From assembly GCF_009755605.1 (NCBI RefSeq), contig NZ_WPNZ01000031.1:1-64000 (forward strand): a stretch of 64,000 bases of DNA, written 5' to 3'. Positions within the stretch are counted from its first letter, which is position 1. The number at the start of each line of letters is the position of its first letter. Position numbers and translations under genes: made by a program. Positions 4,901 through 17,206 of this stretch are shown piece after piece. The notes beneath the pieces are model-generated. The model worked only from the letters and a program-made list of their open reading frames with translations. It made no database searches and had not been told where the DNA came from. This DNA comes from Streptomyces typhae. GTDB lineage: Bacteria; Actinomycetota; Actinomycetes; Streptomycetales; Streptomycetaceae.

Positions 4901-5206
4901 TCAGCCCGTGGCGATGAAGTGGAAGGGACGGTCTCCCACGTCGCCGTTCGAGTTGCCCGTACGGACCGTCACCCTCTCGGTCGTGGCGCCGGTGACGTGC
5001 ACATTGTCCAGCAGGCTCCAGGCATCGCCATCCAGAGTGGCAACAACCGACGGCGTCTCGAGGAAGTCGTTGTTGAAGGTGATGGTGTACGTGCCAGTGC
5101 CGACCTTCGTAACCTTGAAGCCGTGGTTGGCGCCAGGCTTCCGAGTGCCGTCAGCCGCAACGGTCCCGCGGACGATCTGGAGATTCTCGTAGGCGTTGAT
5201 AGTCAT
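4901..5206 (-). CDS. Small beta-rich protein resembling tail-fibre/lectin-type domains
   Basis: The ATG at 5206 is chosen because AAAGAGG stands 6 bases before it. The 101-residue product opens MTINAYENLQIVRGTVAADG. It then carries the pattern HGFKVTKVGTGTYTITFNND followed by PSVVATL and a final VTVRTGN...FHFIATG. The GTGxYTITF / PSVVATL pattern is typical of small jelly-roll-like domains in phage tail fibres and secreted bacterial proteins. There is no signal peptide or membrane segment. It is flanked downstream by a terminator and upstream by an 8-bp inverted repeat (5286-5305). I infer a binding or structural role, but the ligand is unknown. Confidence 0.7.
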   Translation of the reverse strand: MTINAYENLQIVRGTVAADGTRKPGANHGFKVTKVGTGTYTITFNNDFLETPSVVATLDGDAWSLLDNVHVTGATTERVTVRTGNSNGDVGDRPFHFIATG

Positions 5207-5360
5207 TTCCGTACCTCTTTCCTTGGGAGTTTCGCCCCAAGGACATGTCCGAGCCGGATGCACCCATGCCCCATTCGAACGAAACGCGCTCGCTCGGGCG
5301 AGCGCCCGCTCTTACCCGTTCTCAGCCCGCGTGCGCCCGCCCCCTGGCCCCTCCCGGCCC

Positions 5361-5756: not shown

Positions 5757-6315
5757 GTGCCTGGATGGCGTGTGTTCTGGGTGCCCACAGGGCGGCCGGT
5801 TGGCGGGACGGAACGGTTACCGGCGCTGGGGGTCTGGGAGGATCTGTCGCTTCGGGAGGAGCGAGTGGGTATCCATCCGGGTGACCCGATCATGCTCGCC
5901 CCCGACTGCAGGGTGGACGAACTCTTGAGCGAGTACCTGTGTCGCTCGAGCTTCGTTCACCTGGAACATGAGACGAAGCGGAACTACACCTCGGACTACC
6001 GCGTGTTCTTCGACTTCCTTTGGGGTCGGGGACTTGTCTGGAATGGCGCCAGTGCGGACAACCTGTTCGACTTTCATGACTGGCGTGTGCGGTCGCCGCG
6101 GAATCCCGACCGGGTGGGCGGGTCGAAGTGGAACCGCGAGCTGGCGGCCCTGGCCCGCCTCTACGACTGGCCCCAGCGGCGTGGACACGTGGCGATGAGC
6201 CCGGTGTTGATGCGGTCGGCCAGGGGGCGATACGGGGGGGGTGGTATCGGTTCCGGCCGGGCGGGCCAAGAACGCCCGATCCAGTAATGTGCATTGGCTG
6301 ACACCGCGGGCTTTT
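5757..6315 (+). pseudogene. Tyrosine recombinase remnant (Tn554 TnpA-like), N-terminal domain
   Basis: It begins MPGWRVFWVPTGRPVGGTER. The frame then continues with ELLSEYLCRSSFVHLEHETK, NYTSDYRVFFDFLWGRG and KWNRELAALARLYDW. This is the N-terminal SAM-like core-binding domain of phage-type integrases. At a run of eight G residues (around 6229-6236) the frame is lost. The next family segment (PAGRAKNARSSNVHWLTPRAF) continues in another frame and stops abruptly near 6315, where sequence from a different gene begins. The catalytic domain is absent, so this is dead. Confidence 0.7.
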
Positions 6316-6324
6316 AACGCCATG

Positions 6325-6485
6325 CCCGCCAACTCCTTCAGAAGGCACAACAGCTCGAACAGCGCCTCACGCAGCTGCCCGCCCCGCTGGCCGAGCGGCT
6401 GCGCGGTACCGCGGACAATCTCCGGCAGCACGCCGCGCTCCATCACCACCAGCGCATCACCGCCCAAGAGGGAGAAGCCCCGTGA
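6325..6485 (+). pseudogene. C-terminal tail of a second transposon recombinase (TnpB-like)
   Basis: In the frame ending TGA at 6483-6485 the sequence reads KAQQLEQRLTQLPAPLAERL and then NLRQHAALHHHQRITAQEGE. This helical tail is typical of the second recombinase in Tn554-like trios. It is joined directly to the truncated first recombinase, which implies a deletion that removed the end of one gene and most of the next. Its stop overlaps the GTG start of the following gene (GTGA), as in intact trios. Confidence 0.55.
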
Positions 6486-6913
6486 GCCCGGCACTGGACG
6501 AACGCGAGCGCATCCGCGCCGCCATGCACCGCATCCTCACCGGCACCCCCCAGCACTCCAACGGAGCCCTGACCGTGGTCGCCCTCGCGCAGGAGGCCGA
6601 CGTCCCCCGCAATGCACTCACCCAACAGCACCCCGATCTGAAGAACGACTTCTACGCCGAGGTCCGCCAGCGGGCCCAGCCTGCCGAAGCCGAGCTACGG
6701 CTGCGCAAACAAGTCGTCAAACTCAAGGAACTGCGCGCAGCAGGCCGCAAAGAGCTCTCTGAACTCCGCGCCGACCGTGAAGCCCTGGTCCGCGTCGTCC
6801 ACCAGCTGACCCTGGAAAACCGGCAGCTTCGCCAACACGCGGCGCCCACCGCCGTCCTGCGGGCTCTGCCCACCCAGCCACAGCCGCCCGCCGACCCGGC
6901 CATTTTGGAATAG
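6482..6913 (+). CDS. DUF6262-like / TnpC-like transposon accessory protein
   Basis: The GTG at 6482 overlaps the preceding stop. The 143-residue protein starts MSPALDERERIRAAMHRILT. A helix-turn-helix-like region (SNGALTVVALAQEADVPRNA) leads into a long coiled coil (AELRLRKQVVKLKELRAAGR ... LVRVVHQLTLENRQLRQHAA). This matches the third protein of Tn554-like integrase trios (TnpC/DUF6262), which assists recombination. It is intact, but its two recombinases are destroyed, so it is probably a leftover. A weak hairpin, CCCCGCTGACGGGG (6929-6942), follows. Confidence 0.7.
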   Translation: MSPALDERERIRAAMHRILTGTPQHSNGALTVVALAQEADVPRNALTQQHPDLKNDFYAEVRQRAQPAEAELRLRKQVVKLKELRAAGRKELSELRADREALVRVVHQLTLENRQLRQHAAPTAVLRALPTQPQPPADPAILE

Positions 6914-7184
6914 GAACCCCTATTCGAACCCCGCTGACGGGGTCGTTGAAGCTGGTTGAGGCGCTGGTGGCGCGGGTCTTGGGCCTTTCCGGTGCGGATG
7001 ACGGCGAAGGTGAGCGGTCTCCTACCGGATCCAATTCCGTTCTGGCGATCACCAGGTCTGACCTGTGCGGTGGGCCGTGGCCCCGAGCGAGTGACAGCTG
7101 GTATCGGCAGAGTGGACGGAACGCCGCCAGGGCAAGATCGAAGCGTCACGGATTGCCGGTGACCTCTAGGGAAGCGAGTGCATC

Positions 7185-7628
7185 ATGGGACTGGTCCGTC
7201 TGACCGATATCCAGATCGCGGAGTTCAGGGAAGCGTTCGAGCTTGTCGATAAGGACCATGACGGCAAGATCACCCCTGAGGAGCTTGGAGCCGTCTTGCG
7301 GTCGATGGGTCGTAGCACGACGGACGCCGAGCTCCCAGAGCTCGTGAGCGTGCTCGACTCCGACGGCAGCGGGCAGATCGAGTACGCCGAATTTCTGGCT
7401 CTGACTTCGGCGAACACGGTCGACGACAGCCCAGATCTCATGGAGGCGTACAGGGTCCAAGATAAGAACGGCGACGGCCTGATCAGCCCCGAGGAGTTCA
7501 AGTACGTCACGGTCCAGCTCGGCGAGAAGTTCTCCGACGAGGAGGTTGCTCGGTGGGTGACCGAAGCTGACGTGAACGGCGACGGACAGATCAACTACGA
7601 GGAATTTGTGAGGGCACACCTCGCGTGA
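7185..7628 (+). CDS. Calmodulin-like protein with four EF-hands
   Basis: The ATG at 7185 starts a 147-residue protein with the calmodulin opening LTDIQIAEFREAFEL. There are four canonical EF-hand loops: D22-E33 (DKDHDGKITPEE), D58-E69 (DSDGSGQIEYAE), D93-E104 (DKNGDGLISPEE) and D129-E140 (DVNGDGQINYEE). All have Asp at position 1, Gly at 6 and Glu at 12. The loop starts at 22/58/93/129 almost coincide with 20/56/93/129 in eukaryotic calmodulin (148-149 residues), and whole segments such as LGEKFSDEEVARWV are close to it. The product is cytosolic, with no signal peptide. It presumably binds calcium and a target protein; no target is evident nearby. The gene stands alone between transposon debris, consistent with transfer. 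Confidence 0.9.
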   Translation: MGLVRLTDIQIAEFREAFELVDKDHDGKITPEELGAVLRSMGRSTTDAELPELVSVLDSDGSGQIEYAEFLALTSANTVDDSPDLMEAYRVQDKNGDGLISPEEFKYVTVQLGEKFSDEEVARWVTEADVNGDGQINYEEFVRAHLA

Positions 7629-8098
7629 GCGAGTGTCAGCGAAGGACGGCTGGATGAACGCCACCGAAGATCACCTGGGCCGACGCAGCAGGGCTGTGGC
7701 TGCGGCCAGGTGAAAGCCGGCTGAAACGGTCAGCGTGCTGGCGGAAGCGGGTACGGCTGGCCCATGCCGTCCCTTCTGCTTCCCGTCCCGCTGGTGCTGT
7801 GTCGTTCTGTCACGGCGGTCGGCGATGCTGCCGGTTTGAACCTGGAGCCGAAGTTATGGAGAGGGTTTGCTGTCTGTCCGTTGTCCATCTGAAGCCCGGC
7901 GGGAGGGACCAGCTCCCCGCTCTCGGCCTGTTCCGCAACGCCGTGCTGCTGACGAACACCCGCCGCTTGAACCCCTCCGTAACCTCGACGACGGTGAGGA
8001 CGCGAAGGCTGAGAGTCCCTGCGGAGGGAAGGACTGTATGGCTATGCGTGCAGTTTCAGCGGCGAAGGCCCGGTCGTCTGGCTGTGAACGCGTGAAGG
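7629..8098. other. 470 bp without a recognisable gene
   Basis: I find no frame with convincing protein character and no strong hairpin. The right boundary is the left terminal repeat of the ISL3-type element. Confidence 0.45.
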
Positions 8099-8135
8099 GG
8101 CTCTGGTCCACTTTCTGTGGTCGCGTGTCCCTCGG

Positions 8136-8545
8136 TCACGTCAACAGGGCTCGTTTGCGTAGGAGTTCGAACCCGGCCCGTCCGAACATCTGACGCTTGA
8201 GCATCTTGATCCGGTTGACGTGACCTTCGACGACGCCAGAGTTCCACGGCAGGGTGAGACCCGCGATGACGGCGTCGAGGTCACGTTCGAGGTGCTGGGC
8301 GAACCGGCTGAGGCTGGGCAGGTCGGTGGCAGCGCGAGCGGACTCGATCCATTCCGGCAGTCGTTCGCCCTCCAGCTCGGTGACCATGCGGGTGAAGGAC
8401 CGCACGTGCTCCGCGAGTGCTGTCAGCTGGCGGCAGTTGGCCAGGACTGCCTTGAACTGGAGTCGGTCGCGTTCGGGCAGGGCGTCGGGGTGGGAGAGGA
8501 GCCAGCGCGCAGGCGTGTGGCGGGAGGCACTGGCCGCGGTGGTCC
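8136..8545 (-). pseudogene. ISL3-family transposase, C-terminal fragment
   Basis: The frame reads SASRHTPARWLLSHPDALPE, DRLQFKAVLANCRQLTALAE, LPEWIESARAATDLPSLSRF and then the hallmark end WNSGVVEGHVNRIKMLKRQM. This is the final third of the DDE_Tnp_ISL3 domain, including the conserved E of the DDE triad in VVEGHVNRIK. Upstream of about 8545 the family match stops. It cannot be a functional enzyme alone. Confidence 0.8.
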
Positions 8546-8686
8546 TCCCGACCACACGCCGGTCAGGGGCGTGACCAGGTCACACTGAAGACCCCTCAGA
8601 CACCCGCTGTCACCCCCGGCCGTGAAGGCGGCGCGGCAGGCGGGCGCATGTCGGGCCATCCGCATCGTCCGGAAACTCAAATGTCC

Positions 8687-9034
8687 CTACAGCTCGTCTT
8701 TAGAGACGCCCAGGGACGTGAGCATGAAATGGAGATTGAACCCTTGCCCATTCTGCACCGGGAGGTCTGCGCCACCACACTGATTGACCGGACTACCGAC
8801 TGGTAGTCCGGCAAAGTTACTGTCGGCCATTCCACTACCGCGGGTGGTCGTTCCTGCTGCGTGACTACCGTGGTGGTTGGCGCAGTCGGTTCCGAAGGCC
8901 GGTGACAGGAAATCCCCGACGCCTCCCGCTGATGCCGGTGAAGCCACGGTTAGGGCCATCCCTGCTGTCGTCGCGGCTACCAGCGCTACCCTGGTGACTG
9001 TCTTGCGTGGAGTCATGCAAGGGAAACGATTCAC
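8687..9034 (-). CDS. Small secreted protein of a Streptomyces-specific family
   Basis: The N-terminus MTPRKTVTRVALVAATTAGM followed by ALTVASPASA is a classical Sec signal peptide with an A-S-A cleavage site. The mature part GGVGDFLSPAFGTDCANHHG continues with a region holding LPVGSPVNQCGGADLPVQN, with two cysteines likely to form a disulfide. The start could be the GTG at 9034 or the ATG at 9016; neither has a strong ribosome site. The composition (Gly, Asn, His, small residues) is reminiscent of chaplin-like cell-surface proteins, but the chaplin domain is not present. It lies inside the ISL3-type element as apparent cargo. Confidence 0.7.
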   Translation of the reverse strand: MNRFPCMTPRKTVTRVALVAATTAGMALTVASPASAGGVGDFLSPAFGTDCANHHGSHAAGTTTRGSGMADSNFAGLPVGSPVNQCGGADLPVQNGQGFNLHFMLTSLGVSKDEL

Positions 9035-11306: not shown

Positions 11307-11948
11307 GTGACCGATGACGATCACGCACTGACGGACGCGTTCGGGATTCCCCTGCGGGACGGCCCCGACACGCCTTCCGCGCTCCGCACAGGACTGCCCA
11401 TCGACTTCGAAGGGTTCTACCTGGGCCAGCAGGAGTTCTTCCACGCCTTCGCCGAACTCCACCTCGGCCACCGCAGCGCGGCCGAACTCGTCGTGCACGA
11501 CGTCTGCCTGGAGATACTGGCGACCTGGGACGACCTGCTGACCGAAGCCGACCTCGACCAGCGCGCGATGTCGGTCCTCAGCCGCCATGTCAGCGGGCGC
11601 CTCGCCCAGGAGCGGCGCCCGCCGGCGTTCGTCATCAACGCCCCGATATTCCGCAACCTCGCCGCGATCCGCGCCGAGATGGAGCTGGCGCCCAGCAACG
11701 CCGGGCTGTACGAGGCCATGCTCGAGCTGCCGACCCGCCAGTACAACGCGATCGTGCTCCGGTACGTCCTCAACTACCCGGTCACCCGCATCGCCCGCTA
11801 CATGGGCCTGGACTCACGCACCGTGGACTACCACATCCGCAAAGGACGCGAACGCCTGCGCGTCCTGCTGCAGCTGCCCACCGACGGGGACCGCCGCAAG
11901 AAGGCCGCCCCCACCAAGAAGAACACCGAGGAGAACAAGGGGGAATGA
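11307..11948 (+). CDS. Sigma-70 region 4-type regulator (ECF-like)
   Basis: The GTG at 11307 is chosen for the GAGG five bases ahead; the 213-residue protein begins with MTDDDHALTDAFGIPL (GTG read as Met). The N-terminal part FEGFYLGQQEFFHAFAELHL resembles a region-2-like helix set. The C-terminal part LELPTRQYNAIVLRYVLNYP, VTRIARYMGLDSRTVDYHIR, KGRERLRVLL is a clear sigma region 4 helix-turn-helix. No anti-sigma domain is fused. The stop overlaps the next ATG (ATGA), so the pair is translationally coupled. It likely directs RNA polymerase or acts as a sigma-like DNA binder; promoter targets are unknown. Confidence 0.75.
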   Translation: MTDDDHALTDAFGIPLRDGPDTPSALRTGLPIDFEGFYLGQQEFFHAFAELHLGHRSAAELVVHDVCLEILATWDDLLTEADLDQRAMSVLSRHVSGRLAQERRPPAFVINAPIFRNLAAIRAEMELAPSNAGLYEAMLELPTRQYNAIVLRYVLNYPVTRIARYMGLDSRTVDYHIRKGRERLRVLLQLPTDGDRRKKAAPTKKNTEENKGE

Positions 11949-12607
11949 TGAGGACGCTCGACGACGTGCTCGCCGGCGCCGCCATGCCGGTCCGCACGCA
12001 CAGCACCTTCGACGTCGGCGCAGCACTCAAAAAGCTCGCCATCGACGCCGGCCGCGCCCACACCACCGCGGACACCCAGCTCGCCGCCCAGGCCGGGCAG
12101 CGCCTGACCGTGATCGCCCGCTGGATGCTCAACGCACCGCACGCCGCCCACCACGTCGACCAGCTCGCCCGCGGCAACCCCGACCGCCCCGTCGAGGAGG
12201 ACAACCTCGACGTCGAGGGCGCCGCCGTCTTCGCCTCGCTCCTGCACCTGACCGGACAGCACCCCGAATCCGCCCAGTTCTGGTGGCAGCTCGCCGCAGG
12301 CGCCGGCCACCGCGCCTCCGCCTACTGCCTCCACCTGCACCACACCGCCCTCGGAGAACAGCGCGAAGCATCCCACTGGCTGCACCAGGTCCTCTACGAC
12401 CTCGGAGACCGCCTCGACGACGCCTACTTCGAAAAAGTCGAAGCCATCGCCCGCTACCTCTACCCCCGCCCCGCCACAGCCGCACCGCTCACCGGCAGCC
12501 TGGAAATGGAAGTCGACCGCCTCGCCGACGACGGCGCCCCCTGCGTGATCGTGCCCCGCCCCGACCGGCGCCTGGCCCAGGCCCTGCGCGAACACAGCCG
12601 CACCTGA
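11945..12607 (+). CDS. Partner of the sigma-like protein, TPR/Sel1-like helical protein
   Basis: It starts at the ATG overlapping the preceding stop and reads MMRTLDDVLAGAAMPVRTHS. The middle carries helical repeats, with TGQHPESAQFWWQLAAGAGH and SAYCLHLHHTALGEQREASH like degenerate TPR/Sel1 units. The end ACVIV-type segment (GAPCVIVPRPDRRLAQALRE) is hydrophobic then basic. It has 220 or 221 residues, with no signal or membrane segment. Strict coupling to the sigma-like gene suggests it modulates that protein, as an anti-sigma or a co-regulator. That is inference from position only. Confidence 0.6.
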   Translation: MMRTLDDVLAGAAMPVRTHSTFDVGAALKKLAIDAGRAHTTADTQLAAQAGQRLTVIARWMLNAPHAAHHVDQLARGNPDRPVEEDNLDVEGAAVFASLLHLTGQHPESAQFWWQLAAGAGHRASAYCLHLHHTALGEQREASHWLHQVLYDLGDRLDDAYFEKVEAIARYLYPRPATAAPLTGSLEMEVDRLADDGAPCVIVPRPDRRLAQALREHSRT

Positions 12608-15577: not shown

Positions 15578-17149
15578 TCAGAGGAACGCTGTGGCTGCCT
15601 GGTGCAGGTGGATCACCTCGATCAACTGTGAGTCCCGCCGTTCCTCGTACCGGCCGTGGTCCAGGGCTTGCATACCGCGGGCCAGGCCGTCGGGGTCGAT
15701 CAGGCCAGTGTCGAACAGGGGCGATCCGGTGCTCAGTATCTGTTTCAGCAGCGGCTTGCCATAGGTGATCAGTGAGGTGGCGACGACTTCGGCGAAGGAC
15801 TCCCGTTCGGCCGGCCAGACCACGTCGCGGCTCAGCCCCAGGGCGGCGAGCCGGCGGCGCTGGAGCTGCTTGAGGGCGCGCCAGTCCATGGGCAGGGCCT
15901 CGCCCAGGGCGACCATTCCCGGGTCGGCGAAGGGATGCAGCGGCCACAGCCCGGCGCGCAGCAGGACCGGCGCGGACGTCTCCAGCGAGAGCAGGGTCAT
16001 GCTGTTCACGGGCGCAGGCGGAGCGATGCCGACATCGCTGAAGTCGGCCACTTCACCGACCCGGTGACCGATCCAGGGCAGTCCTTCGCCGTCTTCCATC
16101 CGGCCCGATGCTCGGTGCGGGTGCTCTGCCTGGGAAAGGGCGACCATCTCGTCGCCGCCCAGGCCGGTGGCCACCGTGTGCGCGCCGTGTTCGGCGATCC
16201 GTGCGGCCATGACGGTGAAGGGATGGTGCAGGGGCTCCTCGTACGGGCTGATGGGCTCTCCGCGCACCCGCGCGCAGGCAGGGTGGAGCGGGAGCTCGAC
16301 GGTGGCATCGACCACGTCGTCCAGTGGGCCGAAGGGCACCGCGGCTCGCATCTCTCTTCGTCGTCGCACCTGCTGGGCCCGTCCCGGTCCGGCGATCAGC
16401 AGGGCCGCGGTGTTCAGCTTGCCAGGGTATCGCTGGGCGGCGCGCAGGGCGGCGGTGCCGGAGTCGAAGCCTCCGGTGAGGTGGAAGACGGTGTGCTGTG
16501 CGTCGAGCGGGCGCACGTCCAGGGCGCCGTCCAGGGCCTGGGCGAAGGCGCCGAGGACATCCGCGCCGGGTGTCAGTTCACGCGGGCCGGTGTGCAGGGC
16601 CGGTTCGGGATAGCGAAGGTAGAGGTGACCGCCGAAGTGGGCGGTGGAACGCTCGGTGAGCCGGTGGATGCCGTCGAACAGGGTGTCGTGGCTGTACCGG
16701 GGGCGGTAGAGCAGCAGCCGCGCGGCCTCACGGACGTTGATCTGACGAGCATGCGCGCGTAACTCGGCCATGTCCCACGAGCCGTACAGGCGTACCTCGT
16801 CGTGCGCGAGGTACAGCGGCGTCGTGCGGCAGGGGCCCGCCGTCACCCGCACGGGCTCGTCCCCGGTGACCTCCACTGCCACGTAGTCCGCAGGCCAATG
16901 GGCCAGCGCCGTTTTCGCCTCGTCATACACGGCCGGGGAGATGTGCCGCACCGACGGCTCGCAGACGTTGCGGTCCGCGACCCGCTCGCGTACCACGATC
17001 AAGCAGCGTCTACCGTCATCGACGGCCAAATGTTCGACCATCGGGTGCCGAAATGGTTCGACCCGATTGCCTTCGTCCACAGTGACGTACCGGTCGCCGG
17101 TCCACTGCCAGGCGCTGTTCCGGTAGGGCGTGATGCACAGCTTAATCAC
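15578..17149 (-). CDS. Asparagine-synthase-like ATPase, candidate peptide cyclase
   Basis: I choose the GTG at 17149 because AAGGGGGAGACC precedes it, giving 523 residues starting with IKLCITPYRNSAWQWTG after the Met. The N-terminal part is a glutaminase-like domain without the catalytic cysteine at position 2. The synthetase domain has the pyrophosphate loop HLTGGFDSGTAALRAA (usual SGGxDS, here TGGFDS) and the second motif VATGLGGDEMVAL. This pattern is seen in beta-lactam synthetases and lasso-peptide cyclases rather than true asparagine synthetase. It lies 57 bp behind a 56-residue peptide gene on the same strand. I see no RRE (PqqD-like) or B2 protease gene, so a canonical lasso cluster is not present. 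Confidence 0.75.
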   Translation of the reverse strand: MIKLCITPYRNSAWQWTGDRYVTVDEGNRVEPFRHPMVEHLAVDDGRRCLIVVRERVADRNVCEPSVRHISPAVYDEAKTALAHWPADYVAVEVTGDEPVRVTAGPCRTTPLYLAHDEVRLYGSWDMAELRAHARQINVREAARLLLYRPRYSHDTLFDGIHRLTERSTAHFGGHLYLRYPEPALHTGPRELTPGADVLGAFAQALDGALDVRPLDAQHTVFHLTGGFDSGTAALRAAQRYPGKLNTAALLIAGPGRAQQVRRRREMRAAVPFGPLDDVVDATVELPLHPACARVRGEPISPYEEPLHHPFTVMAARIAEHGAHTVATGLGGDEMVALSQAEHPHRASGRMEDGEGLPWIGHRVGEVADFSDVGIAPPAPVNSMTLLSLETSAPVLLRAGLWPLHPFADPGMVALGEALPMDWRALKQLQRRRLAALGLSRDVVWPAERESFAEVVATSLITYGKPLLKQILSTGSPLFDTGLIDPDGLARGMQALDHGRYEERRDSQLIEVIHLHQAATAFL

Positions 17150-17206
17150 GGTCTCCCCCTTCGTCTGCGGGCCCGCCACCCAGGGCCGTGTCCGTGTACG
17201 CCAGCG

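Follow-up and report, generated by a model that had tools for sequence, protein, structure and literature searches.

Calmodulin, which serves animals, plants and fungi as a calcium switch, is usually regarded as a eukaryotic signature; calerythrin and the Cab proteins are the established EF-hand proteins of actinobacteria. In a 64,000-nucleotide stretch of Streptomyces typhae DNA (hereafter the window), an original prediction had pointed to a short gene, lying amid transposon debris, whose product seemed to have the full four-EF-hand layout of calmodulin. The locus raises the question of whether this layout comes from calmodulin itself and, if so, by which route the gene reached a bacterial genome and what its product may do there. 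The features of the locus are collected in Table 1.

Table 1. Positions in the window of the calmodulin-like gene, its EF loops and the neighbouring features.
Feature	Positions	Strand	Remarks
Most likely calmodulin-derived protein, 147 aa, four EF-hands	7185..7628	+	ORF, Pfam, PDB, pairwise and EF-position evidence
EF loop 1, residues 22-33, DKDHDGKITPEE	7248..7283	+	
EF loop 2, residues 58-69, DSDGSGQIEYAE	7356..7391	+	
EF loop 3, residues 93-104, DKNGDGLISPEE	7461..7496	+	
EF loop 4, residues 129-140, DVNGDGQINYEE	7569..7604	+	
Possible ribosome-binding site GGAAG	7170..7174	+	10 bases 5' of the ATG; inferred from sequence
Stretch between mobile-element remnants, GC 63%	6914..8135	.	Holds the calmodulin-like ORF
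Recombinase fragment, N-terminal SAM-like domain PF02899 (5.4e-6)	5757..6287	+	Plasmid integrase similarity
143-aa ORF, 3' of the recombinase fragment	6482..6913	+	Matches 12/100 genomes at E≤1e-10, own included
ISL3 transposase fragment PF01610 (1.2e-8)	8136..8555	-	

The reading frame starts with an ATG and is uninterrupted for 147 codons, with an in-frame TAG upstream at 7167-7169. The GC content of its three codon positions (0.66/0.36/0.80) is coding-like, the GC3 of 0.80 being lower than that of some genes of the same contig (for example 0.91 for 11945-12607). In Pfam the product matched EF-hand_7 (2.8e-33) and EF-hand_1 (1.1e-30), and EF-hand pair models were found on both halves. The predicted four-EF calmodulin layout was borne out: in a protein of 147 residues the loops begin at residues 22, 58, 93 and 129, and the EF consensus at loop positions 1, 3, 5, 6, 8 and 12 is respected at 24 positions out of 24. 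Promoter and terminator scans gave nothing at this gene, nor at the calmodulin gene of a second Streptomyces genome, G233, that is described below.

We compared the window protein with proteins of known structure. A phmmer search of the PDB returned 515 distinct chains at E≤0.001, the best 60 of which were all calmodulin or calmodulin fusions, with E values of 1e-43 to 3e-42 and one fusion among these 60 reaching 1.8e-52. This match is far above chance and, judging from the sequences, the calmodulin-like layout reflects homology, beyond mere similar spacing. Pairwise comparisons with a small eukaryote panel of 15 sequences (the yeast one verified) gave identities of 51% with Arabidopsis and Chlamydomonas calmodulin, 50% with those of Paramecium and fission yeast and 49% with those of human and Trypanosoma; Neurospora was the lowest of the 12 panel calmodulins, whose overall range was 40-51%. 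Identity was 41% with human CALML5 and 35% with both centrin and troponin C. When the lobes were scored separately, each did best against its human counterpart: the N-lobe reached 203 there, compared with 140 for the human C-lobe and 127 for the highest-scoring of 18 EF-hand pairs of the family, and the C-lobe 187, compared with 105 for the human N-lobe and 129 for the highest-scoring of the same 18 pairs. An AlphaFold model showed eight helices (mean pLDDT 75, pTM 0.42), and the 50 Foldseek matches listed were all calmodulin, calmodulin-like protein or calmodulin-holding constructs, with 48-53% identity. Because the pTM is 0.42 and the TM-scores of these 50 matches are just 0.35-0.56, the arrangement of the two lobes is not predicted by the model.

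The distribution of the gene among bacteria was then surveyed in several genome draws that partly overlap. In the family draw, where, as in the genus and class draws, at most 10-12 candidates were scored in the richer genomes and single misses are possible, 17 of 394 genomes matched at E≤1e-8, 15 of them over one lobe only; full-length relatives were found in two genomes, that of the window and G233 (E 4.7e-37). The genus draw (392 genomes, E≤1e-15), the phylum draw (396 genomes, E≤1e-10), the class draw (296 genomes, E≤1e-12) and the relatives draw (100 genomes, E≤1e-12) each returned one genome, that of the window itself, and the G233 protein used as query found only itself among 100 genomes. 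All candidates were scored in the last two of these searches, as well as in a draw of 61 genomes made with a calerythrin-like protein of the window's own genome (L003). Counting its own genome, the latter protein had matches in 28 of the 61 at E≤1e-15, most of them with 27-35% identity, which shows that such a search can detect a multi-EF family inherited vertically. A broad vertical actinobacterial family, the outcome that was to speak against the original prediction, was thus sought and not found in the family, genus and phylum draws.

A scan of genome contigs with short peptide patterns gave 18 loci, 17 of which correspond to a short EF-hand segment of the window protein; such a scan picks up close relatives only and missed the G233 copy, hence it is a weak negative. 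The remaining locus is in Pseudomonas sp. Irchel s3b2 (L004, 5932-6234) and encodes a 100-aa protein, resembling the C-lobe of calmodulin and carrying an extra inserted stretch, in which 43 of 81 aligned residues are identical to the G233 calmodulin. No match was obtained in plasmid and phage records with the window protein, or in phage records with the G233 protein, and viral contigs searched with either protein, with their alignment or with Paramecium calmodulin yielded nothing beyond one IMG/VR contig. Two candidate assignments were rejected: the XopAW effector family (NF041410), for which the window protein scored 60 bits (E 2.9e-16) against an NCBIfam cut-off of 120 bits, and the calerythrin type, since neither 1NYA, 3AKA nor 3AKB appeared among the best 60 of the 515 PDB matches and the gene was present in 1 of 100 genomes. 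None of the actinobacterial families found here accounts for the window protein. As a separate observation, besides the window gene, the window's own genome has EF-hand pairs over the Pfam cut-off at five further places, on contigs C17, C3, C20, C59 and C45 (L048-L054).

The other full-length copy lies in a prophage. In G233, the calmodulin ORF is on the 8.48-Mb contig C1 (L022, 1465-1935; an earlier GTG is an alternative start). Its product, of about 156 aa, shares 70% identity with human calmodulin and 46-48% with the window protein (48% over 139 columns). The gene runs on the opposite strand, flanked by a gene for an endolysin (PHROG endolysin, 2.7e-97) on one side and minor-tail-protein-like genes on the other, and further up there is a tape-measure gene (2.7e-123); this position, inside a prophage within so long a contig, makes assembly contamination unlikely. 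A 100% identical calmodulin is encoded by the 39-kb viral contig IMGVR_UViG_2872861354_000001 of IMG/VR, which perhaps comes from the same strain. Among 101 phage records similar to the prophage, 98 are named Streptomyces. We compared the site with that of five other viral contigs whose endolysin is 87-95% identical, and the calmodulin gene was absent from all five. In three of them (L069, L071 and L072) the tail-side and endolysin-side similarities abut, the approximately 660 bases that hold the calmodulin gene being absent; the two others, L068 (3147-3842) and L070 (1730-3934), hold other DNA there, with no blastn match, which makes the gap between tail and endolysin genes look like a hot spot for insertions. 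In phage Attoomi, the endolysin and minor tail genes follow one another in the same order, with a small hypothetical gene in between. As the site is empty or otherwise filled in related prophages, the G233 calmodulin gene appears to be added cargo of the moron type. PHROGs gave no match for this protein, and no report of a phage-borne calmodulin was found among the listed titles and abstract openings of open-licence articles. The same prophage region also contains a gene (L040, 14182-17388) of low GC3 (0.59) for a 1068-aa NACHT-domain protein (PF05729, 3e-13), located on the same strand as the calmodulin gene and opposite to the late genes, and without a PADLOC match.

Looking at the surroundings of the window gene, the description of transposon debris holds for the immediate flanks, with the PF02899 recombinase fragment on the left and the PF01610 ISL3 fragment on the right. 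The left flank is similar to 76 plasmid records, 64 of which are from Streptomyces, and in the 15 listed among these 76 the similarity extends no further than 6891. Segments 6851-7185 and 7629-8250 share one inverted 11-mer and no exact direct repeat of at least 11 bases. None of the three flanking ORFs scanned matched PHROGs, in which the window protein itself had a single marginal match (0.0006), with a family whose function is unknown, and PADLOC found no match among the three proteins given. Elsewhere in the window and on the minus strand are genes for a Chaplin-like secreted protein (8687-9034; PF03777, 2e-5), which adjoins transposon remnants, and for an asparagine-synthase-like protein (15578-17179; PF00733, 9.4e-5), possibly part of a peptide biosynthesis cluster, as well as a compact 120-aa ORF (4901-5263) that has neither a Pfam nor a PHROG match.

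We then turned to phylogeny. Full-length trees were built from 16 or 17 proteins; CALML5, included in the first tree only, was dropped for its long branch from the later ones and from the lobe tree below, and calcineurin B was added in the second. The window and G233 proteins group with calmodulins against centrin and troponin C in all three, with supports of 84/90, 78/95 (calcineurin B added) and 82/77. Nesting among the calmodulins is not settled by these trees: one in which the window protein stands apart from a group of G233 and the 12 eukaryotic calmodulins is not rejected (p-AU 0.267), and neither is placing both bacterial copies outside the eukaryotic calmodulins (0.336), joining the window protein to centrin (0.382) or to troponin C (0.249), or joining it to the G233 calmodulin (0.306 in the final tree, 0.114 and 0.104 in two earlier ones). 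The terminal branch of the window protein is about 1.5 in the full-length tree. In a tree of 39 lobes and 70 columns, all 16 N-lobes, that of the window protein included, fall on one side of a branch supported at 94/94, and forcing both lobes of the window protein together costs 27.7 lnL units (p-AU 0.0499). When the C-lobe was forced to group with six two-EF proteins of the family, or the N-lobe with the L029 protein, the likelihood was 2.32 and 1.18 above that of the free search, respectively; since these constrained groupings fit slightly better, 70 columns do not settle the neighbours of either lobe. Orthology of the N-lobe to the calmodulin N-lobe is supported by its score and by the N-lobe branch, though the L029 grouping is not rejected (p-AU 0.569); that of the C-lobe to the calmodulin C-lobe is favoured by its score, whereas the tree does not reject the grouping with the family two-EF proteins (p-AU 0.612).

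What the protein may do can be approached through its target surface. The groove methionines of calmodulin serve target binding. The G233 prophage calmodulin keeps seven of these nine residues and the window protein none, the nine positions being occupied by L, L, L, T, A, T, W, A and H; relative to human calmodulin it also carries F19V and F92Q. At the EF positions 19 of 24 residues are identical to those of the human protein, versus 53 of 122 elsewhere (Fisher p 0.0016). With 24 of 24 EF positions in consensus against 0 of 9 groove methionines, calcium binding looks kept and target recognition rebuilt, a pattern that would be expected of a calcium switch that lost its eukaryotic targets and gained others. 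The protein is most likely derived from calmodulin; as one hallmark, the methionine groove, is lost, we class it as a retargeted variant and not as calmodulin proper, with a function that we infer from its sequence. No signal peptide was obvious on reading the N-terminus, so a cytosolic role is likely. The product would be a cytosolic two-lobed Ca2+ switch with one EF-hand pair per lobe and intact ligands, and by analogy with its family the binding of Ca2+ should open both lobes. Because, in the sequence, the methionine-rich surface with which calmodulin grips its targets is replaced, a role as Ca2+ sensor or buffer, exercised on a new and probably bacterial partner, is most likely, more so than general activation of eukaryotic calmodulin targets.

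How the gene came to be there is a matter of weighing several histories. According to a 2020 study (PMC7016017), calmodulin itself is inferred to stem from bacterial EF-hands of cyanobacteria or actinobacteria, and the window protein could then be a survivor of the lineage that gave rise to the eukaryotic protein, a placement outside the eukaryotic calmodulins being compatible with the tree (p-AU 0.267). We consider such a survival unlikely: a vertical spread would be expected, yet only the genome of the window itself matched in the phylum (1/396) and class (1/296) draws, the protein is nearer to the 12 panel calmodulins (40-51%) than to centrin (35%), and the genus has its other full-length copy in a prophage, with 70% identity to human calmodulin. 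The direction argued for here, from eukaryote to bacterium, is the reverse, because of the rarity of the gene and its mobile context, and it leaves standing the family origin proposed in PMC7016017. A home-made protein, in which duplication or fusion of the family's two-EF-hand proteins produced one lobe or the whole and whose resemblance to calmodulin is convergent, seems slightly less probable still. Such two-EF proteins do exist, 15 of the 17 matching genomes of the family draw having single-lobe matches only (E≤1e-8), and grouping the C-lobe with them fits slightly better than the free search; on the other hand, for each lobe the matching human lobe outscores the best of the 18 family pairs by 58-76 units, and the two lobes of the protein resist being placed together (27.7 lnL, p-AU 0.0499).

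A further possibility concerns use more than origin, namely that a transferred calmodulin gene is no longer employed and drifts as an intact relic amid mobile-element debris. The remnants on both flanks, the lack of a promoter-like site in our scan, the long branch and the loss of all nine groove methionines would suit a relic, but the intact frame, the coding-like codon pattern and the complete EF consensus (24/24) would not, and the excess of identity at EF positions (19/24 versus 53/122, p 0.0016) goes beyond drift alone, although conservation before the transfer contributes to it. We regard disuse as improbable. The preferred reading, namely descent from a eukaryotic calmodulin by way of mobile DNA together with a present role as a two-lobed Ca2+ switch with a new and probably bacterial partner, is the one that we hold to be probable on the sequences at hand. 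The similarity, the rarity and the prophage-borne relative in G233 all point to a eukaryotic calmodulin gene that would have entered a Streptomyces genome on mobile DNA, and this transfer is the likeliest origin, the trees being too weak for proof or for naming the donor. Since most eukaryotic calmodulins are at least as close to the window protein as the G233 protein is, the two copies could go back either to two independent entries or to a single old one.

Altogether, these data point to a window gene that is real, rare, intact and most likely calmodulin-derived, and they suggest that the eukaryotic calmodulin gene occasionally passes into bacteria and their viruses. More tentatively, one may imagine that in Streptomyces eukaryotic calmodulins travel as lysogenic-conversion cargo of temperate phages and other mobile DNA and that the window gene is an older, domesticated and bacterially retargeted copy, a combination that we put forward as possible and not as our expectation. 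If it were true, the prophage copy, which keeps most of the target groove, could influence eukaryotic neighbours or the calcium-controlled development of its host. A pair of calmodulin-derived genes within the same genus, one with 7 of 9 groove methionines and the other with 0 of 9, would provide natural experiments on how a cell without the usual targets receives a eukaryotic hub protein, and an isolated module derived from calmodulin would make the question of bacterial Ca2+ signalling testable.

Compared with known systems, the window protein shares with eukaryotic calmodulin its length, four EF-hands at matching positions, the lobe order, the EF ligands and 49-51% identity (human, Arabidopsis, Paramecium and Chlamydomonas); it differs by a central linker two residues shorter than that of the human protein, by the absence of all nine groove methionines, by F19V and F92Q and by its location in a bacterial genome. 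The G233 calmodulin is likewise a full-length relative in the same genus and on mobile DNA, but it is 70% identical to the human protein, keeps seven of the nine methionines and is seated in a prophage. The Pseudomonas protein is another sporadic calmodulin-like gene product in a bacterium, although its resemblance is limited to the C-lobe and it is a 100-aa protein with an inserted stretch. Proteins of the calerythrin or 3AKA-3AKB type, represented by L003, are also actinobacterial multi-EF-hand proteins; L003 has its best PDB matches with 3akb and 3aka (3e-17), calmodulin reaching just 1.8e-6, and in contrast to the window protein belongs to a separate and broader family. Finally, a review (PMC10574481) cites, besides the Streptomyces Cab proteins, a Streptomyces calmodulin-like protein and, from S. 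ambofaciens, one with four EF-hands; the Cab proteins and the S. ambofaciens protein, which enter this comparison by name and not by sequence, resemble the window protein in being EF-hand proteins of Streptomyces.
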